Shown: one piece after another, positions 24,582 to 34,994 of the stretch
Numbering within the stretch: position 1 is the stretch's first letter
How the letters are laid out: each line of letters opens with the position of its first letter
Assembly: GCA_946623785.1 (NCBI GenBank)
Contig: CAMORM010000006.1
Location: forward strand, 1-42,410
DNA: 42,410 nt
DNA from: an uncultured Verrucomicrobiota bacterium
GTDB taxonomy: Bacteria > Verrucomicrobiota > Kiritimatiellia > RFP12 > UBA1067
Direction: 5' to 3'
The notes under the pieces: model-generated
The model's database searches: none
What the model saw: only the letters and a program-made list of their open reading frames with translations
What the model was told of the DNA's origin: nothing
Program-made: the position numbers and the translations under genes

Positions 24582-25235
24582 ATGAACGAACAGGCAGTGG
24601 AACAGGGCATCACGCTGATGCAGGCTTGGCAGTATGGCGGAGACCTCATGTGGGTGCTCCTCGGGATGAGCGTCATCGCGCTCGCTCTTGTCATGTACAT
24701 CCTCGTCGCGCACCGCCGCGGCGCCATCGCGCCGGCGGCGCTGCTGTCGGACGTGCTCAACGCGCTCCACGGCGACAACGCGTCCGAGGCGAAGCGCCTC
24801 TGCGAGCGCTCCGGCTCCGCGCTTGCGGACGTGGCCCTTGCCGGCGTTCTCGCCGTCACGATGCCGGGCGCCACGCTCGAGCGCGTCAACGCGGCCGTCG
24901 AGACGGCCGGCGCGCACGCCGCGGGACGCATGAGCGCAACCGTGGAATACCTCCTCGACATCGCAACGATCGCGCCGCTCGTTGGACTCCTCGGAACCGT
25001 GCTCGGCATGTTCAAGGCGTTCAGCGGCGTCGCGAACGACATCGCGAGCGCGAAGCCCGTGGTGCTTGCGCAGGGCGTCTCGCAGGCGATCATCACCACG
25101 GTGTTCGGCCTCCTCATCTCCATCCCCGTGCTCGCCGCGTACGCGTTCTTCCGCCGCCGCGTCGCGCGCAGGACCGACGAACTTGAAAACGCGGCCGCGG
25201 AGATCGTGGACGCCATGGTCTCGAAAGGCCGGTGA
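24582..25235 (+). CDS. exbB: MotA/TolQ/ExbB-type proton channel protein
   Basis: The 217-aa protein has three membrane helices: about 24-44 (MWVLLGMSVIALALVMYILV), about 130-150 (IATIAPLVGLLGTVLGMFKAF) and about 165-190 (QAIITTVFGLLISIPVLAAYAFF). The spacing is that of the ExbB/TolQ family, with the diagnostic 'iApLvGLLGTVlGM..aF' and 'i...l.tT.fGLlisIPvl.ay.ff' segments. With ExbD, 6 nt downstream, it forms an inner-membrane channel that uses proton- or sodium-motive force to drive a periplasmic transducer. TolQ is an alternative name, since the family cannot be split by eye. No tonB or tolA lies in the window, so the energised partner is elsewhere or is one of the downstream envelope proteins. 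Confidence 0.9.
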   Translation: MNEQAVEQGITLMQAWQYGGDLMWVLLGMSVIALALVMYILVAHRRGAIAPAALLSDVLNALHGDNASEAKRLCERSGSALADVALAGVLAVTMPGATLERVNAAVETAGAHAAGRMSATVEYLLDIATIAPLVGLLGTVLGMFKAFSGVANDIASAKPVVLAQGVSQAIITTVFGLLISIPVLAAYAFFRRRVARRTDELENAAAEIVDAMVSKGR

Positions 25236-25241
25236 GAAGCC

Positions 25242-25661
25242 ATGAACTTCAGAAAGAAGGCAAAGCCGGCGCTGCCGCAGTTCCAGATGACGGCCATGAT
25301 GGACGTCGTCTTCCTGCTGCTCTGCTTCTTCGTGACGACGAGCGTCTTCTCGCAGTGGGAGTGCGAGGTACAGCTGACCCTGCCGACCGCAAAGAGCGCC
25401 GTGGCCCCGGAGCGCATGCCCGGCGAGATCATCCTCAACGTGGCGCAGGACGGCTCGGTAACGGTCAATCAGCACAAGCTTACGCCGGAGGAGCTCACCA
25501 CGCGCCTCAGGCGCATCGTGAGCATCTACCCCGGGCAGCCCGTGGTCATACGCGCCGACAAGGACACTTCCTACGAAAACCTCATGAAGGTCATCGACAT
25601 CTGCCGCCAGTCCGACGTGTGGTCCTTCTCGCTCGCGACGAGGGACGCCGAAAAGAAATAG
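25242..25661 (+). CDS. exbD: ExbD/TolR-type biopolymer transport protein
   Basis: The 139-aa protein has the family layout. It has a short basic cytoplasmic start (MNFRKKAKPALP), one membrane helix (about 17-37) carrying the conserved acidic residue in 'MTAMMDVVFLLLCFFV', and a periplasmic domain with the usual 'i.v..dGsv.vn...l..eel...l' and 'p.VvIRaDkdtsYe.lm.viD.cr.s' pattern. The helix aspartate is the ion-carrying residue of the channel. It starts 6 nt after exbB and its stop is 4 nt before the cytochrome gene, so all three are tightly coupled. Confidence 0.92.
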   Translation: MNFRKKAKPALPQFQMTAMMDVVFLLLCFFVTTSVFSQWECEVQLTLPTAKSAVAPERMPGEIILNVAQDGSVTVNQHKLTPEELTTRLRRIVSIYPGQPVVIRADKDTSYENLMKVIDICRQSDVWSFSLATRDAEKK

Positions 25662-25665
25662 CGAG

Positions 25666-28305
25666 GTGAACGTGGTCAGGAAAACGACACTTGCTGCAGT
25701 TGCCTTCGCGGCCCTTTCGGCCGCCGCTGCGCCGTCCCACTGGAACGGCGGAAGGAACGTGCCAGTGCACAAGATCGCTCTCCTCGACGCCGACGGGGAT
25801 ACGGTCAGCCCGCGCGACGCGAACGCCGCCGCGATGTCCACGGCCAGGACGTGCGCGCAGTGCCACGACCTTGACGCGATGAAGGGCGGCTCGCATTTCA
25901 GGACGGGCCTCGACAAGGACGACGCCAAGCCGTCCGTAACGGTCGAGCCTTGGTTCGCCGTCGACTACGTAACCGGCTCGCAGATACCGCTTTCCCTCCG
26001 CGCCCAGGGCGGCGCGTACCATCCGCTGCAGCTCGGCATCGGCTTCTGGGAGTGGACGCGCGACTTCGGCCGCCACTTCCCCGGCGGCGGCATCGCGAGC
26101 GACGCGAGGGCCATGTCGGAGAAGGCGGGGCCGAACAACCGCTGGAACGTCACGGGTCCGCTTGAGCCGAACTGCTTCGCGTGCCACGCCAACACTGCCG
26201 AGTACGACCACTCCGAATGGGTTCGCCAGATATACCGCGAGAACTTCTCCGGCGCGATGTCGGCGGCGCTCGGCATTGCCGACGTCGACGGGATCAACGC
26301 CCGCCTCCCGGAGCACTGGTCGCGCTCGTGCGGCGTCAACCCCGACGACCACGTGTTCATGGTCCCGCAGGAGATGCGCTACCAAACTGCGAAGTTCGAC
26401 GAGAAGGGCCGCATCGTGCTGCCGATCGGACGCCCCAGGAACGAGAACTGCCTGGCATGCCATTCCGCCACGGAAAAGGGCATGGGGGCGCATGAGATCC
26501 AGGGCGACGTCCATCTCCGCGCGGGGCTCTCGTGCACCGACTGCCACAAAAACGGAATGGACCACAGGATCAAGACGACGTCCTGCGCGGAGTGCCACAC
26601 GAAGGGCGACTCCAGTGGCAAGCTCCGCGGCCCAAGGCCTAAGCACACCGGATTTCCGCTCGTGCACTTCGAGAAGCTCTCGTGCACCGTGTGCCACTCC
26701 GGCGTCACCAGGGGTGGGCGCCTTGCCGAGGTGCGCACGTCGCGCGCCAACCGCATCGGCGTCTACGGAAGGGCGCGGTGGGCAACCGAGCCGCCGTACA
26801 TCGTCGAGCCGGTCTTTTCGCAGGACCTCGACGGCAAGATCCGCCCGAACCGCCTGATGTGGCCCGCGTTCTTCGCGAAGGCCGGGAAGGGCGGATCGCT
26901 CGAGCCCGTGAAGCCGGAAGTCGCAGCGAAGCTCGCAGGCGACGCCCTGACGCCGTACGAGCGGGTTTCGGAGGTGCTTGCCGCCCTCAACTCCAATCCC
27001 AACAGGCCCGGCGACGCGTACCTTTCCGAGGCCGGGATCTTCTACCGCACGAAGGACGGCGACGTTCCGCTGTGGCGCGAGGAGGAGTCGGACGACCCCA
27101 AGAAGACTGAGGCCCTGAACAAGCCGCTCAGCGATGCGCTCCAGTCCGTGGCGACGCTGCTCCCCGAAAAATCCAGGGACATACCCGTGGCCTTCCGCTG
27201 CGGCAAGGCCCAGGCGTACATGTTCGAATACAGGACGGTTACCAAGAGGGATCCGGAAGGAGGCGACCTCGGGCTCCACGAACACAGGGGATTCAAGTCT
27301 GTTCCCGCGGAGGGCGACCTCAGAATCGGGTTTTTCAGGGACGGTAAGGACGAGTTCGTGCCGCTCCTTGACAAGTACACGCGCGAACAGTACCTCAAGC
27401 TTTCGCAGGACCGCGAGCACCCGCTCACCGAGGACATGGTCAAGGCCGCGCTCGAGAAGATGGGCCCTGACTACCGCTATGTCGCGCATGGCTGCATATT
27501 CGGGGTCAAGAACGGCAAGATGTACCGCTCCACTGGCGACATCGCAACGCCGATCGCCTGGCCCGTCGGACACGACGTGCGCCCTGCGGGGCAGGCCCGC
27601 GGCTCCGCACCGCAGAGGTGCGCCGAATGCCACACCGCTGACTCGGAGTTTTTCTTCGGGAAGATCGTTCCGACAGGCCCGATCGCCGGGTTCATGGACG
27701 AGGGCGCGCTTGTCGACCGCGCGGCGGCGATGGGCGTCAGGGGTATCTACCACCGCGTGTTCGGCTTCACCTTCATGATGCGGCCGGTGTTCAAGGTGTT
27801 CCTCTGGGCGGTGTTTGTGCTTGCGTGCATATTCGCATGCGCCGCGGCTGCCGTTGCCGTTCCGGCGGCGCTCAGGGGCATACGCGGCAAGGCGGCCGAC
27901 TGGCGTGCCGTGCGGGTGCTTCTTGTCCTCATGCTGGCGGCGTCCGTTGCGTATCTCGGCGTGAGCGGGCTTTGGGGCTGGCTCTTCGGCGGCATGACCG
28001 GCTGGCTCCTCGTGTTCCACATGGTGGCAGGCGGGGCCTTCGCGTTCGCTGCGACATGCCTCTTCGCCCTGCGCGGCGGCGAACACGCGTCGTCGCACCC
28101 GTGGATATACATGGCGCTCGCGCTTTTCGGCGCCGCAACAGTCTTCACGGCCGTCATGCCCATGATGGCGGTGTTTGGCGACTCAGGGCAGCGTTTCCTG
28201 CTCGCGTCGCATCGCTGCTGCGCGTTCTGCTGCGCGCTTGCGCTCGCTCTGCTGTGCGCGGCGGCGTGGCGTGGAAGGAAGTCTAAGGCCCGCGGGAAGG
28301 CCTGA
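25666..28305 (+). CDS. Secreted seven-heme c-type cytochrome with a five-helix membrane tail
   Basis: From GTG 25666 the product has 879 aa with a signal peptide (VVRKTTLAAVAFAALSAAAAP). Seven CxxCH heme sites are visible: CAQCH 63-67, CFACH 170-174, CLACH 262-266, CTDCH 290-294, CAECH 307-311, CTVCH 340-344 and CAECH 652-656. Between the sixth and seventh is a non-heme domain of about 300 residues. The last 180 or so residues hold about five membrane helices. Two have histidines that might ligate b-type heme ('LLVFHMVAGGAF', 'LLASHRCCAFC'). The layout suggests an electron-transfer protein linking quinol or membrane heme to extracytoplasmic c-hemes. The specific enzyme family is not recognised. 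Coupling to exbBD (4 nt) and to the TPR membrane protein is close. Confidence 0.85.
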   Translation: MNVVRKTTLAAVAFAALSAAAAPSHWNGGRNVPVHKIALLDADGDTVSPRDANAAAMSTARTCAQCHDLDAMKGGSHFRTGLDKDDAKPSVTVEPWFAVDYVTGSQIPLSLRAQGGAYHPLQLGIGFWEWTRDFGRHFPGGGIASDARAMSEKAGPNNRWNVTGPLEPNCFACHANTAEYDHSEWVRQIYRENFSGAMSAALGIADVDGINARLPEHWSRSCGVNPDDHVFMVPQEMRYQTAKFDEKGRIVLPIGRPRNENCLACHSATEKGMGAHEIQGDVHLRAGLSCTDCHKNGMDHRIKTTSCAECHTKGDSSGKLRGPRPKHTGFPLVHFEKLSCTVCHSGVTRGGRLAEVRTSRANRIGVYGRARWATEPPYIVEPVFSQDLDGKIRPNRLMWPAFFAKAGKGGSLEPVKPEVAAKLAGDALTPYERVSEVLAALNSNPNRPGDAYLSEAGIFYRTKDGDVPLWREEESDDPKKTEALNKPLSDALQSVATLLPEKSRDIPVAFRCGKAQAYMFEYRTVTKRDPEGGDLGLHEHRGFKSVPAEGDLRIGFFRDGKDEFVPLLDKYTREQYLKLSQDREHPLTEDMVKAALEKMGPDYRYVAHGCIFGVKNGKMYRSTGDIATPIAWPVGHDVRPAGQARGSAPQRCAECHTADSEFFFGKIVPTGPIAGFMDEGALVDRAAAMGVRGIYHRVFGFTFMMRPVFKVFLWAVFVLACIFACAAAAVAVPAALRGIRGKAADWRAVRVLLVLMLAASVAYLGVSGLWGWLFGGMTGWLLVFHMVAGGAFAFAATCLFALRGGEHASSHPWIYMALALFGAATVFTAVMPMMAVFGDSGQRFLLASHRCCAFCCALALALLCAAAWRGRKSKARGKA

Positions 28306-28330: not shown

Positions 28331-31300
28331 ATGTCCGAAGAAGAGATCAAGGTTTCCGAAAAGCGCGGTTGGACCGTGGCGGCGGGCATTGGCCTGCTGG
28401 CGCTGCTGGTGTATTCGCTGACGCTCGCAGACTATGCGTTTCCCGGCGAGTCCGCCGCGGCCATCACCGCATGGACGGGGATGGACGTCCTGAAGAGCCC
28501 GCTGCACCCTGTCTGGGGAGCGTTCGTAAGGTTCGTCGGCGGGCTTTCCTTCCCGTCGTCGCTTGTGGTCCGCGTGAACATGTTCTCGCTTGTGTGCGGA
28601 GTGCTTTCGGCTCTCATGGTCTGCCGCCTCGTCCGCGCGTTCGTGCTCGCGATGGTGTCCCACGAGGACGTGGCGCCGAAGGCCGGCCTCGCTGCGGACG
28701 TGGCCTCGCTCGTCGCAGGCGCGGTGTTCGTTTTCGGCGTGCCGGTGTGGCAGGCGTCAACGCACCTCGAGTGCCGCATCTTCGACGTCATGTTCGCGCT
28801 TGCGATGTTCTCGCTGCTGCCTTTCGTGTTCCGCAACGAGAAGCTGGCCTGGCCGCTCGCGATGCTCGCGGCGGTGATGCTCGGCGTGGGCGCGGTGGAG
28901 TCGGTGATATTCCTGCCGCTCGCCCCGATCATGGGCATATTCGTGTTCGCGGCGTTCCGCGGCCGCGGCAGGGTGGCGATTGCGGCGCTCGGCGCGTTCG
29001 CGCTAGTCGCGGCCGTCTCGTTCGCGCTCTACACGCGCCACGTTATGCAGGGCTTCGCGGCGACGCCCTACGCCATGGCGTGCGGCGAGTCAGGCATGAC
29101 GCCGATGGAGGTGGCGGTGGACTTCTGGCGCCAGCAGACGGCCGAGGTCCGCTCCTGGTACCAGCGGCCGGCGTGGCTGTGCGTGATGCTGACAGCGGTG
29201 CTGCCGTTCGTGGCGTGCGGCTTTGCGGCCATACGCGGCCTGAGCAGCGAGCGCTCGATGAGCCAGTACGTGTTCCACCTTGCGATGACGGCGTGCGTCA
29301 TCGCGGCCACCATGACGCCCGCCTCGCCCAACGAGCTCATGAGGCTCTCCGAGAAGGCTGGCCTTGCGACTTCGCTCCCGGTCGCGATGGGTACGATCAG
29401 CGCGATAACGGCTGGGTACCTCGCGGCGTACTGGATGCTTCTCTGGCGCGTAAAGGTCAAGGCCGACGAGTTCGACGGCCCGCCGGTCGTCGCGCAGATC
29501 GCCAAGCCGCTCGGCGCCACGGCGATCGTCATCCTGTTCGCGGCGGTGTTCTTCGGCTCGATCGTAAACGCGTTCAAGTGCGGACGCGACCGCGGCGAGT
29601 TCGCCGACCTCTGCGCCGCCGAAGTCCTCGACCGGCTCGGCGACCGCAACTGGTTCGTTACACAGGGCATACTCGACGACCATCTGCGCATCCTGGCCGA
29701 CGTGCGCGGCACGAAGCTCAACCTGGTGTGCCTGCAGCGAGAGGACGACGAGTCCTACCTCAAGGACCTTGGCGCGAAGATCGCGGAAGCCGGACTCAAG
29801 AGCACCAAGGGCGACCTGAAGTCCACGTCTCTGCTCGGCGTGCTGCCGTTCGTCCAGGACTGGTTCGCCGGCGACCCTGACGTCAACTCCAAGGCCGCCG
29901 TCTTCGGAATCCCCGACTTCTGGTACATAGCGCAGAAGACGCCTGTTCCGGACGGCATCTTCTTCACCGGCGTCAACGACGTGAAGTCCTTCGACGGCAA
30001 GAAGGCGTTCGCCGAGTTCCTGGAGCTGTGGAAGCGCATGGAGAAGCCGCTCTTCCGCAGGCGCGGCGAGTCGCTCGCCGAGGTCGACGATCCCGTTTCC
30101 CGCGTAAGGCTCCACCTCCGCCGCCACCTCGGGTTCGTGGGCAACAACCTCGGCGTCACGCTCCAGGACATCGGAATGGACGACGAGGCGTTCCAGCTCT
30201 ACGAGCTCGTCCGCAAGACGATCGACCCCGACAACGTGTGCGCGCTGTTCAACGAGTTCGAGATGGCCCGCTCCGGCGTCAAGTCCGCCGTGGCGCGGAA
30301 GGGCGAGATAGAGAAGGAGATACAGTCGCTCGTCGACAACCCGGACAAGCGCTACAAGCTGTGGTCCCTCTCCAGGTTCTACGGCTACATCCGCTCGCCG
30401 GAGATATTCGCGCGCATGGGCTATGGCTGGGCGCGCTCCGGCCAGACCGGAGCCGCCATCACGCAGGTGCGCCGCGCGCTTCCGTTCGTCCCGGCAGACC
30501 GCCAGTCAGGCCTCGGGAACATCATGGCGGCGATCTACGCCATGGGCGGCGAGACGCAGAAGTCCCGCGACGCGTACATGAAGGTGCTGGATGACGACGG
30601 CGGGAATCGCGACGCGCTTCTCGGCCTCGCGCGCCTCGCGATGCAGTCCGGTTCGCTCGACGAAGCGCGCGACTACATGACGAAGGCCGTTGACCAGTCC
30701 CCCAACAAGGAGACCTCGAACGTCGAATGGGCGATCATCCACCTGATGAACAACGACCTCGACCAGGCCAGGCTCTACCTCCAGAAGGCGACGGACCTCA
30801 ACCCGAACGACCTCCAGGCCTGGGGGCTCCTCTCGCACGTCATGCTCCAGCAGGCCGATGCGGCGAAGGACCCGAAGGAGAAGGGCAAGATAATCGACGA
30901 CCTCGAGAGCGTGATCATCCCGCGCATGGAGAAGATTGCAGGCGGACCGCACAACTACTTCGTGCAGGTCTCCCGCGCGCTTGTGCTGCTCCAGCGCGGG
31001 AATGAGCGCAGGAAGGATGCGCGCGACGCGCTCCTCGCCGCGTTCAACCTCCGTCCCGAGGTCACGGTCGTTGCGAACATGGTCCTCCAGCAGGACATCG
31101 CGCTCGACGACAAGGCGCGTGCGCGCGAGCACGCTCGCCTCGTCCTACGACAGGACCGCAAGAACCAGCTCGCCAACTACGTCCTCGGGTCGCTCCACCT
31201 CGGGCAGCGCGAATACGGCAACGCAGAGACGTTCCTGCGCCTTGCGGTGTCCGACCAAAAGCCGTTCGCCGCTGCCGAGAACGACCTCGCCGAGGTGCTC

Positions 31301-31651
31301 CGCCGCGAAGGCCGCTTCGAGGAGGCCGAGCACTACGCCAACAAGGCGGTGACGTCCGACCCCGAGCTCTACGTCGCGTGGGAGACGTACGCCTCCACGC
31401 TGATCGACCAGAACAAGGACCTCGGCAAGGCGGAGGAGTACCTGCGCAAGGCCATCGACCTCTGCAAGAAGAACACAAACCAGGAAGACCCGCGCATGCA
31501 GATCACGCTCGTCAAGGTTCTCCTCAAGAACGGAAAGACGATGAGCGCGAAGGGCACGCTGAGGTCGCTCCAGTCGCGCCGCAAGGAGCTTTCCGACTTC
31601 GACCTGGAAGAGCTCGACAAGGTCGCCGCGGAGGCCGCGAAGGCCAAGTGA
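28331..31651 (+). CDS. Polytopic membrane protein (DUF2723-like) with a long periplasmic TPR domain
   Basis: ATG 28331 has a GGAGAGG Shine-Dalgarno; the longer ORF start lies within the cytochrome gene. Of 1106 aa, residues about 15-430 hold roughly ten membrane helices. The first loop 'YAFPGESAAAITAWTGMDVLKSPLHPVWGAFVRFVGG' followed by 'VRVNMFSLVCGVLSALMV' matches the DUF2723 / GT-C-like pattern (GDsgef...g..HPpgyPly...N..S). This family is related to protein O-mannosyltransferases such as TMEM260. A mixed domain follows (about 430-590), then about 500 residues of TPR-like helical repeats ('AWGLLSHVMLQQADA', 'NYVLGSLHLGQREYGNAETFLRLA', 'YVAWETYASTLIDQNKDLGKAEEYL'). It may glycosylate exported proteins held by the TPR scaffold, but catalytic residues cannot be assigned by eye. 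It is an operon member with the cytochrome and the WPF protein. Confidence 0.75.
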   Translation: MSEEEIKVSEKRGWTVAAGIGLLALLVYSLTLADYAFPGESAAAITAWTGMDVLKSPLHPVWGAFVRFVGGLSFPSSLVVRVNMFSLVCGVLSALMVCRLVRAFVLAMVSHEDVAPKAGLAADVASLVAGAVFVFGVPVWQASTHLECRIFDVMFALAMFSLLPFVFRNEKLAWPLAMLAAVMLGVGAVESVIFLPLAPIMGIFVFAAFRGRGRVAIAALGAFALVAAVSFALYTRHVMQGFAATPYAMACGESGMTPMEVAVDFWRQQTAEVRSWYQRPAWLCVMLTAVLPFVACGFAAIRGLSSERSMSQYVFHLAMTACVIAATMTPASPNELMRLSEKAGLATSLPVAMGTISAITAGYLAAYWMLLWRVKVKADEFDGPPVVAQIAKPLGATAIVILFAAVFFGSIVNAFKCGRDRGEFADLCAAEVLDRLGDRNWFVTQGILDDHLRILADVRGTKLNLVCLQREDDESYLKDLGAKIAEAGLKSTKGDLKSTSLLGVLPFVQDWFAGDPDVNSKAAVFGIPDFWYIAQKTPVPDGIFFTGVNDVKSFDGKKAFAEFLELWKRMEKPLFRRRGESLAEVDDPVSRVRLHLRRHLGFVGNNLGVTLQDIGMDDEAFQLYELVRKTIDPDNVCALFNEFEMARSGVKSAVARKGEIEKEIQSLVDNPDKRYKLWSLSRFYGYIRSPEIFARMGYGWARSGQTGAAITQVRRALPFVPADRQSGLGNIMAAIYAMGGETQKSRDAYMKVLDDDGGNRDALLGLARLAMQSGSLDEARDYMTKAVDQSPNKETSNVEWAIIHLMNNDLDQARLYLQKATDLNPNDLQAWGLLSHVMLQQADAAKDPKEKGKIIDDLESVIIPRMEKIAGGPHNYFVQVSRALVLLQRGNERRKDARDALLAAFNLRPEVTVVANMVLQQDIALDDKARAREHARLVLRQDRKNQLANYVLGSLHLGQREYGNAETFLRLAVSDQKPFAAAENDLAEVLRREGRFEEAEHYANKAVTSDPELYVAWETYASTLIDQNKDLGKAEEYLRKAIDLCKKNTNQEDPRMQITLVKVLLKNGKTMSAKGTLRSLQSRRKELSDFDLEELDKVAAEAAKAK

Positions 31652-31674: not shown

Positions 31675-33030
31675 GTGAACCGGTCCGCGAGCATGAAGCT
31701 GGTTTTCGCCGCCGCAGCCGCGGCTGTGGCGGCTGCGGCGCGCGCATCGGACCTGACGCGCGTCACTACAACGGCGCCCGCCGAGTCGCAGTTCCGGGTC
31801 CTGCCGTTCTACGAGCAGCGCTTCGTGTCGTATGGCGAGGGGCGGCCCGAGGCCTCCTTCTTCGCCGTGAGGCCGTTCTACTCGCAGGTACGCGACCCTG
31901 TTTCCGACACCAGGATATGGGACGTCCTCTGGCCTGTCGCAACATGCCACAGCCACAACGACGCCGCCTGGTGGCGCGTGCTCAACTTCTACGGCGACAG
32001 GCGGTATAACCCGGACGGCTCCGTGCTGGACCATTCGTTCTGCATCTTCCCCGTGTGGTTCAACGGTCGTACCCGCGAGGGGACGTCGTACTGGGGGCTT
32101 TTCCCGTTCTACGGGACGCACCCGCACTTCCTCTTCATGGACGACATCCACTTCGCTTTCTGGCCGTTCTACATGGACTATTCGGTCAAGGGCGTGCGCA
32201 CGCATTCTGTCTGCTGGCCGTTCATATCGTGGAAGGACTCGCCGCGCGAGTCGCTCGGCATCTGGCCTTTCTACGGCCACACGCGCAGGCGCGAAAGCGA
32301 CCACCGGTACGTGCTCTGGCCGCTCTTCACCTGGGCCTCGTACGAAAGCGACCGCGACACCTCCGGCGCCGGCAGCTCCTGGATGTTCTGGCCGCTATGC
32401 GGAGGGGTTTCGCGCGAAAGGGAGTTCCAGGCACTCTTCCTTCCGCCGTTCTTTTCGTATGCGCGCACCGACGACACCCGCCGCTGGCGCATGCCGTGGC
32501 CGCTCGTGGACGTTGAGTTGGGACGCGAGCGCAACCGCGTGTCCGTGTGGCCGCTCTACGAGCGCATCACGGGCTTTTCGTATCTGCCAGGAGAAGGCGG
32601 AGCCGATGCCGCCCCTCCAGCCGAGGAGCATACCTGGCGCATAGGGTGGAAGCTCGTCGAGCGCACGCGCCTTGAGACCGACAGGTCGCTTGAAAAGCGC
32701 TTCTCGTTCTTCCCGTTCTACACCGACGAGGACCTCTGGTCGAAGACAAAGCCCTCGGCCGCGGGGGACGGCGAGACTCCAGCTGTCACGCTTGCGTCGT
32801 CATACTTCCGCATCTGGCCGTTCTACGCGTCGGTGACCGAGAACGGAGAGACGCGCCGCCGGATCCTCGAGCTCAACCCGATCCGCCACTCCGGCGGCAC
32901 GGAGCGCAACTGGGCGCCGTTCTGGACGTTCTACACGAACGAGACGCGCAGGGACGGATCGACGCGACACACACTCTTCTGGGGCCTTGTCAAGTTCACC
33001 ACAGGCAAGGACGCCCATTCCGAAAAATGA
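31675..33030 (+). CDS. Secreted WPF-motif repeat protein of unknown function
   Basis: GTG 31675 follows AAGAGAGG by 6 nt and yields 451 aa with a signal peptide (NRSASMKLVFAAAAAAVAAAARA); ATG 31693 is the alternative. The mature part is built from at least ten short repeats with an aromatic core, '(I/L/F)(W/F)P(F/L)(Y/I/F)': LPFYEQRF, VRPFYSQV, FPFYGTHP, FWPFYMDY, CWPFISWK, IWPFYGHT, LWPLFTWA, FWPLCGGV, VWPLYERI, FFPFYTDE, IWPFYASV, FWTFYTNE. Between the cores lie polar turns rich in R, E, D and S. Alternating aromatic strands with charged turns suggest a beta-barrel or beta-solenoid, possibly in the outer membrane. I do not recognise a characterised family. It follows the TPR protein by 23 nt and closes the envelope run. 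Confidence 0.8.
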   Translation: MNRSASMKLVFAAAAAAVAAAARASDLTRVTTTAPAESQFRVLPFYEQRFVSYGEGRPEASFFAVRPFYSQVRDPVSDTRIWDVLWPVATCHSHNDAAWWRVLNFYGDRRYNPDGSVLDHSFCIFPVWFNGRTREGTSYWGLFPFYGTHPHFLFMDDIHFAFWPFYMDYSVKGVRTHSVCWPFISWKDSPRESLGIWPFYGHTRRRESDHRYVLWPLFTWASYESDRDTSGAGSSWMFWPLCGGVSREREFQALFLPPFFSYARTDDTRRWRMPWPLVDVELGRERNRVSVWPLYERITGFSYLPGEGGADAAPPAEEHTWRIGWKLVERTRLETDRSLEKRFSFFPFYTDEDLWSKTKPSAAGDGETPAVTLASSYFRIWPFYASVTENGETRRRILELNPIRHSGGTERNWAPFWTFYTNETRRDGSTRHTLFWGLVKFTTGKDAHSEK

Positions 33031-33056: not shown

Positions 33057-34994
33057 ATGGATATCCGATTCGGGTTTTGCAATGGAAGTGCGCTTTCGCG
33101 GGCGGCGATCTGCCTGGCCCTTTCGGCTGCCGCGGCCACAGCAGGGGCGACCACATGGCATGTGGACAGCGAAGGAGGCAACGACTCCGCTGCCGGCACG
33201 AGCCCCGAGACCGCGTGGAAGACGCTTGAGCGCGTGAACGGCGCGGCAATCGCTCCTGGAGACAGCGTCCTTTTCAGGCGCGGCGGGCTTTGGCGCGGAA
33301 CACTGCGTCCCGCGAGCGGCGAGCCGGGCAAGCCCGTGAAGTACAGCTGGTACGGCGAGGGCCCGAAGCCGATCCTGGAGCAGTCCGTCGACAGGTCGAA
33401 GCCGTCTGACTGGGTCGAGGAGGCTCCCGGACTCTGGACCACGAGGGTCGCAGTGCCGGAACTGGTAGAGCAGGTCTGGGACGGCACGTCGTGCGAAGGC
33501 TGGACTTCATCGTGGCAGGAGGGCGTGAAGGGAACGCTCAGGCGGGTGACCGAGGATGGCGAGGTCTTCCTCAGGGCGAACTGCACGGAAAAGCCGGCGA
33601 GCAAGCCCAGCCTTGTCCAGCTCTGGGGCCCGAAGGTCGACGTCAGCGCCGATTGCGCGGTCCTGAGGCTGAAGGTCAGGTCCACGAAGCCTTTCCGCCT
33701 CGTCCGCGCCGAACTGATGCTGGCCAAGCCGCCGTGGCCCCATTCGATGCAGGGCGACGTGCCTCGTGCCGACATTGGGCCTGAATGGCAGACTGTCGAC
33801 GTGTTCCTCTCAAGGAAAGGCGCGGTGGACAATGCCTCGGTCCACCTGCCGATCGGCGACGTTCTCCCCGAGGGCGCGGTGTTCGACTTCGTGCCGGTCG
33901 GGATTTGGAGCGCGAAGTACGACGCTTCGCTTGCCCTGCCCTATGACGTCGGCATTTTCATCTGCGACCACGGCAGACGCTGGGGCGTGAAGAAGTGGCA
34001 CAATCCGGAGTGGATGGTCCAGCCGCTCGAGAAGCCGCTCGACTACGCCTACGACGCCGACAAGAAGCGTGTGCTCGTGAGGTTCGACGGCAACCCCGCC
34101 AAGTCGTTCTCCTCGATCGAGCTGGCGTACACCAGGCACGTCGTGAACCAGGGGAACCGGCACGACATCGTGTACGACGGCCTTGCCGTGCGCTACGGCG
34201 CCGCACATGGGTTCGGCGGCGGGTCGACCCGCAACATCACCATCCGCAACTGCGACATATACTGGATCGGGGGCGGACTCCAGTTCTGGAAGAAGGACGA
34301 GAGGACAGGCAAGATACGCAATCCCGTCCGCTTCGGGAACGGCATCGAGTTCTGGGGTGACGCGACAGGCCACCTGATCGAGCGCAACCGCCTGTGGGAG
34401 GTGTACGACGCGGCGGTCACGAACCAGGGCAAGAACGACACGGAGACCGACATCGTGTGGCGCGACAACGTGATCTGGAATTCTGAGTATTCGTTCGAGT
34501 ACTGGAACGCGAAGCTTACCGCCAACATCACGTTCGAGCACAACACGTGCGTGGACGCTGGCTACGGATGGGCCCACACGCAGCGCCCGGACAGGAACGG
34601 CGCGCACCTGATGTACTACCACAACCGCGCCGAGACCTCGAACTTCGTTGTCAGGGACAACATCTTCTGCCGCGCCACGGAGTGGACCATCCGCACCGGG
34701 CTCGACTGGCGCAAGTCGCTCGTGCACGACAACAACCTCGTCTGGAACGAGGGAAGCGTGCCAGTCATTCGCTGGCTTGAAGGCAAGGACCGCCTCATTC
34801 TCGGATGGGACGGCTACCGCGAGCTTGGGTTCGACCCCCACTCCGAGTTCGCCGAGCCGAAGTTCGTCAACCCCGCGAAGCGCGACTATCGTCTCGCCCC
34901 CGGTTCGCCCGGCCTGACGCTTGCGAGCGACGGTGGTCCCGTTGGCGCGCGCAACATGCCCGGTCTCGACGAAGACCAGTCGCTCCAACGCTGA
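33057..34994 (+). CDS. Secreted right-handed beta-helix protein with an inserted beta-sandwich, putative polysaccharide lyase or hydrolase
   Basis: The 645-aa protein has a signal peptide (to about residue 30). It then has 'TTWHVDSEGGNDSAAGTSPETAWKTLERVN', the DUF1565-like opening of many parallel beta-helix carbohydrate enzymes. Residues about 125-290 form an inserted jelly-roll-like segment, possibly carbohydrate-binding. Beta-helix rungs resume at about 370 ('YDGLAVRYGAAHGFGGGSTRNITIRNCDIYWIGG', 'GHLIERNRLWEVYDAAVTNQG', 'NITFEHNTCVDAG', 'FVVRDNIFCRA'). The protein closes with a 'DPHSEFAEPKFVNPAKRDYRLAPGSPGL' tail typical of this fold. An aromatic- and Asp-rich groove fits glycan binding. 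The catalytic family cannot be assigned. It follows the WPF gene by 26 nt with an AGTAAGG ribosome-binding site, and begins the second glycan-active block. Confidence 0.72.
   Translation: MDIRFGFCNGSALSRAAICLALSAAAATAGATTWHVDSEGGNDSAAGTSPETAWKTLERVNGAAIAPGDSVLFRRGGLWRGTLRPASGEPGKPVKYSWYGEGPKPILEQSVDRSKPSDWVEEAPGLWTTRVAVPELVEQVWDGTSCEGWTSSWQEGVKGTLRRVTEDGEVFLRANCTEKPASKPSLVQLWGPKVDVSADCAVLRLKVRSTKPFRLVRAELMLAKPPWPHSMQGDVPRADIGPEWQTVDVFLSRKGAVDNASVHLPIGDVLPEGAVFDFVPVGIWSAKYDASLALPYDVGIFICDHGRRWGVKKWHNPEWMVQPLEKPLDYAYDADKKRVLVRFDGNPAKSFSSIELAYTRHVVNQGNRHDIVYDGLAVRYGAAHGFGGGSTRNITIRNCDIYWIGGGLQFWKKDERTGKIRNPVRFGNGIEFWGDATGHLIERNRLWEVYDAAVTNQGKNDTETDIVWRDNVIWNSEYSFEYWNAKLTANITFEHNTCVDAGYGWAHTQRPDRNGAHLMYYHNRAETSNFVVRDNIFCRATEWTIRTGLDWRKSLVHDNNLVWNEGSVPVIRWLEGKDRLILGWDGYRELGFDPHSEFAEPKFVNPAKRDYRLAPGSPGLTLASDGGPVGARNMPGLDEDQSLQR

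Follow-up and report, generated by a model that had tools for sequence, protein, structure and literature searches.

In E. coli, the Mla system consists of MlaFEDB together with MlaC and MlaA. Veillonella parvula manages with a minimal MlaEFD, in which an elongated MlaD carries an outer-membrane barrel of its own that replaces MlaA and MlaC, and PVC MlaD is stated to lack such a barrel entirely (PMC10665443). Because PVC MlaD has no barrel, the WP protein, which is encoded in the stretch of DNA analyzed here (the window; 42,410 nucleotides from an uncultured Verrucomicrobiota bacterium), is an obvious candidate for the outer end of the Verrucomicrobiota Mla system. As in E. coli, homologues of mlaE, mlaF, and mlaD (assigned by Pfam) occur in the same order, and a secreted accessory is encoded in the operon; unlike in E. 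coli, most genomes carrying the WP gene lack MlaC and MlaA, and the unrelated, all-β WP protein is encoded upstream of mlaE. With the Veillonella MlaEFD, the system shares the lack of MlaA or MlaC and the need for some β-structure to reach the outer membrane; however, the barrel resides within MlaD in Veillonella, whereas Verrucomicrobiota encode a separate secreted β-protein with the transporter. The WP protein, including the copy in the window, is probably secreted and serves as an accessory to an Mla/MCE phospholipid transporter of a Verrucomicrobiota type.

The WP-hairpin gene and its family

The coding sequence of the WP protein, delimited from the open reading frame and its homologues, occupies 31675..33030 on the + strand (451 codons); its GTG start is preceded by a purine-rich stretch, and an alternative ATG lies at 31693. 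Judged from the sequence, the hydrophobic N-terminus is a probable signal peptide (31675..31749, + strand; MKLVFAAAAAAVAAAARA, then SD), the last residues reading ARA-SD, and a crude heuristic detected such a hydrophobic segment at the N-terminus of 173 of 183 relatives. The protein is not claimed to be a lipoprotein; a convincing lipobox is found in very few members, and an automatic count of 25 is too high because it includes cysteines within signal peptides. The short W/F-P-F/L-Y repeats that the preliminary description had noted after the signal peptide are real: 15 [WFLAP]P[FLIVY] motifs are present, compared with a mean of 2.6 and a maximum of 10 in 20,000 shuffles of the same composition, and W/F-P dipeptides number 12 (4.2 expected from shuffles). 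By position, the consensus of the WP turn is [F/W]-x-L-[W/F]-P-[F/L]-[Y/F/W]-[G/S], the remainder being filled with charged residues. Where the repeats are most regular (32050..32553, + strand; WP turns at P126, 144, 164, 182, 198, 216, 240, 258, 276, and 293), their period is ∼18 residues and not 25–45, as had been proposed; the larger spacings correspond to degenerate repeats. Among 113 phylum-wide relatives, 14 or 15 of the motif prolines are invariant or nearly so. A C-terminal signature, ERNWAPFWTFY (32902..32934, + strand; residues 410–420), is modeled by AlphaFold as a short helix; in alignment A1, its R411 and N412 are invariant, and W413 and P415 nearly invariant.

Of 60 near relatives, 53 carry a homologue; in the class as a whole, 315 of 346 genomes do, and in a sample drawn across the phylum, 176 of 388, the gene usually being present as a single copy per genome; named records with the protein belong to Kiritimatiellae, Lentisphaeraceae, and other Verrucomicrobiota. 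The family is spread across this phylum and has no entry in Pfam or NCBIfam: sequence searches of Pfam, NCBIfam, and the PDB with the window protein, with 113 members, or with their profile gave nothing above cut-off. The MlaC and MlaA models (PF05494 and PF04333, respectively) matched neither the window protein nor any of the 113 members, a MORN motif or Pfam match was likewise lacking in this set, and plasmid and phage records contained no relative above cut-off. A distant member (L142; 7385-8569) matched the NCBIfam model NF047486 (LA_1737_Cterm) over 99 residues with E 1.7e-4 and 21.6 bits, which is below the curated cut-off of 60 bits, so that it is not a member by that standard. Through this sub-threshold match, the LA_1737_Cterm family is possibly a distant relative of the WP protein; it hints that the WP-hairpin fold may have relatives beyond Verrucomicrobiota, conceivably in Leptospira. 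Recoding in genus g6 was considered and rejected; the in-frame TGA codons precede the start codon, in a stretch into which the profile match extends too far. One locus of the family (L038; CAMBQV010000097.1) is titled Akkermansia muciniphila but is of the window's GTDB family (Kiritimatiellae-type), and the title looks wrong. In the open-licence literature on Mla with Verrucomicrobia, Kiritimatiellae, or Akkermansia, neither the gene nor the operon is described.

Linkage to mlaEFD

In 67 of 79 sampled loci, mlaE begins no more than 1 kb downstream of the WP gene on the same strand, with mlaF and mlaD next; among the 12 exceptions, one (L131) is cut by the contig end. Pfam confirmed the identity of these neighbors (MlaE, 3e-64 to 3e-67; ABC_tran; MlaD (MCE)). 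Only the WP gene, mlaE, mlaF, and mlaD are common to the 79 neighborhoods, the genes upstream being variable. The gap between the WP gene and mlaE has a median of at most 1 base and is exactly −4 (a stop-start overlap) in 18 of 56 measured loci. Such an arrangement marks a four-gene operon, WP gene-mlaE-mlaF-mlaD, and the association of the WP gene with mlaEFD is well supported. A role as an envelope or outer-membrane partner is plausible (the preliminary description had considered an outer-membrane partner conceivable), the conserved partner being the mlaEFD lipid transporter. In one group (L048:7071-7952, L043, L044, and L045), the WP-mlaEFD operon is immediately preceded by a gene for a ZIP zinc transporter (PF02535).

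In a sample of 145 genomes of the phylum, the membership of which was reconstructed, MlaC was present in 2 of 65 WP-positive versus 13 of 80 WP-negative genomes and MlaA in 7 of 65 versus 45 of 80, an anticorrelation that is confounded by phylogeny, relatedness inflating such contrasts. One genome (G011) carries a canonical mlaE-mlaC-mlaA cluster and a WP-mlaEFD operon at separate loci; since both clusters coexist there, the two systems are distinct. G011 and G025 (loci L163, L164, L181, L184, and L087) contain three distinct MlaE systems, namely the WP-linked one, a long-ORF type, and a third type, which in G011 adjoins MlaA and MlaC. Separately, an MlaA domain was observed in open frames of ∼630–880 codons in the Verrucomicrobiota families f42, f48, and f54 (for example, L303, L315, G065:C1:2910888-2911448, and G085:C18:30337-30894); such frames greatly exceed the length of an ordinary MlaA, which suggests MlaA fusions.

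Predicted fold

AlphaFold2 models were obtained for the window protein (pLDDT 88.7, pTM 0.74) and for a distant member of ∼22% identity (pLDDT 87.4, core 97–98; pTM 0.76), and both have the same strand pattern: a continuous antiparallel meander of ∼38 six-residue strands, in which WP turns alternate with charged loops. Together with direct coupling analysis (DCA), the models place this predicted β-meander domain at 31780..33003 (+ strand; residues 36–443); about twenty short aromatic hairpins make up the protein. The edge formed by the WP turns is hydrophobic from P-4 to P+2, and the opposite edge is charged. Mean-field DCA of 205 sequences (effective number, 167) yielded antiparallel couplings centered on the WP prolines (mean z 0.66–0.74, s.e. 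∼0.12) and on the intervening charged turns, the hairpin centers recurring about every 9 residues of the chain. No strand couplings ran through the WP sites; the aggregated signal places hairpin turns there, and WP as a mid-strand kink in long barrel strands was rejected for this reason. Apparent long-range couplings between repeats were discarded, as they reflect conserved proline columns and are present at every repeat distance.

Foldseek searches with the models retrieved no global match in the PDB, porins included (TM at most ∼0.2; at most 0.28 versus viral models). Similarity was only local, mainly to the single-layer sheets of OspA, MORN-repeat proteins, and various propellers. The likeness to MORN proteins and OspA sheets lies in local geometry, i.e. 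repeated short antiparallel hairpins (Foldseek prob 0.99–1.00); it does not extend to global superposition (TM ≤ 0.22), and the WP repeat of ∼18 residues has an aromatic-Pro turn and neither a MORN motif nor a sequence relation. For MORN proteins, the fold class that the WP protein resembles most closely at the local level, membrane binding had been proposed; it was not confirmed in the one case tested, though individual phospholipids were bound (PMC7725318), which calls for caution over lipid or membrane contact by the WP protein.

Many of the Foldseek matches are propellers (WD40, DPP, and sortilin), in which the chain likewise meanders and turns at one edge and the other by turns, and one alternative is a closed propeller-like or toroidal scaffold that binds MlaD or peptidoglycan rather than lipid. 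Such a scaffold is nevertheless unlikely: the superpositions reach only TM ≤ 0.21 at an rmsd > 15 Å, and the coupling between repeats n and n+2 expected of a four-strand blade was not seen in DCA beyond the conserved proline columns, although power was limited. Overall, the meander may form an open ribbon, a superhelix, or a ring. A standard propeller of known function, named in the preliminary description as the finding that would speak against its proposal, was not found.

The WP protein is predicted to be secreted and all-β and is rich in aromatic residues, with charged turns, and Tom40 and VDAC appear as weak hits among the lower Foldseek matches, all of which would suit an integral outer-membrane barrel acting as a channel or lipid gate in partnership with MlaEFD or the cytochrome. 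However, strands of ∼6 residues (∼11 residues per strand with turns) fall short of the length at which an ordinary barrel strand spans a bilayer, the WP sites are hairpin turns and not mid-strand kinks, and none of the solved barrels matches well. An outer-membrane barrel requires strands of at least 9 residues that close, and DCA detected no coupling between the first and the last strand. An integral barrel is quite unlikely, and an ordinary outer-membrane barrel is disfavored for the WP protein. Of the β-barrel or solenoid with an aromatic ladder that had been envisaged initially, the secreted, repeat-built β-protein with its aromatic ladder stands; the usual outer-membrane barrel is not supported, given the short strands, the turns on both edges, and the lack of a global porin match.

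Detached copies and the proposed role

In the window's clade, the WP gene is not located beside mla. In the tree of WP proteins, this clade (support 100/99) is nested inside mla-linked ones, and the linkage has been lost ∼4 times independently. Where the WP gene is detached, an mlaE of the WP-linked clade was found elsewhere in the genome in 14 of 16 cases checked (9 genomes of the window's family and 5 further genomes). The exceptions are G026, with only fragmentary matches, and the 78%-complete assembly of the window itself, in which no WP-type mlaE or mlaD was found, only another mlaE subtype. WP-type mlaE was present in 0 of 17 WP-negative genomes, of which 13 have other mlaE types and 4 none. 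This co-occurrence test rests on a well-supported mlaE clade of 34 rows; in a quick tree with extra sequences, unlike in the earlier one, the WP-linked mlaE no longer form a single clade. A single origin of the WP-mlaE linkage is therefore no more than likely.

Directly upstream of the WP gene, the window encodes a TMEM260-like membrane protein with TPR repeats (28331..31651, + strand; identified by Pfam), a new neighbor specific to this clade. It occupies this position in most of the clade (L003, L004, L006, L009, L011, L026, L027, L029, L030, L036, L085, and L090), as would be expected if the WP protein now served the TPR product in envelope glycosylation or assembly and its role in lipid transport were gone. 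That is doubtful at best: genomes of the clade keep a WP-type mlaEFD elsewhere, which would be unexplained if the link had been lost, and the conserved residues of the WP protein are identical to those in mla-linked members. The function in the window's clade, uncoupled from mla, could have drifted.

The TPR gene is preceded by a row of genes encoding an ExbB-like protein (24582-25235), ExbD (25242-25661; PF02472, E 4e-28), and a multiheme cytochrome of 879 amino acids (25666-28305). None of the three was found upstream of the TPR-WP pair in the relatives with enough flank (L026, L029, L030, L036, L085, and L090; ∼4–5 kb). Because the row is not common to relatives, the link of the WP gene to the cytochrome is accidental or recent and local to the window. 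Nor does the WP gene clearly end a cytochrome operon, as the preliminary description had it, since the next same-strand gene starts at 33057, 27 bases past the WP stop codon. An electron-path partnership, also raised initially, is extremely improbable despite the position of the WP gene two genes downstream of the cytochrome on the same strand and the richness of its product in Trp and Tyr, because the row is missing in these relatives and the phylum-wide partner is mlaEFD.

As an accessory of the Mla transporter, the WP protein would have been encoded ancestrally just ahead of mlaE (permease), mlaF (ATPase), and mlaD (MCE protein), in that order; its gene would later have left the operon in the window's clade to lie behind the TPR gene, mlaEFD staying elsewhere in the genome. 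The protein is probably the periplasmic or outer-membrane end of the transporter; as the outer partner of MlaEFD, it would reside either in the periplasm or on the inner side of the outer membrane, and its exact role, we infer, would be the task that falls to MlaC and MlaA in E. coli. On the modeled ribbon, the edge lined with aromatic WP hairpins would touch lipid or the membrane interface, and the charged edge would face water or protein partners. How far the ribbon might reach is more speculative. Fully extended, 38 strands at ∼4.8 Å each would measure ∼180 Å, near the width of the periplasm, and a trans-periplasmic ribbon is an attractive, if speculative, arrangement. There is some chance, though not a large one, that an open β-ribbon of ∼38 strands with an aromatic rail bridges lipid from MlaD to the outer membrane, replacing MlaC, MlaA, or the MlaD barrel.

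The WP protein, whose predicted fold as a whole resembles no solved structure, is a specific, phylum-wide, and previously unnamed candidate for how MlaEFD reaches the outer membrane without MlaA and MlaC, and through it many "hypothetical proteins" of Verrucomicrobiota acquire a probable function.
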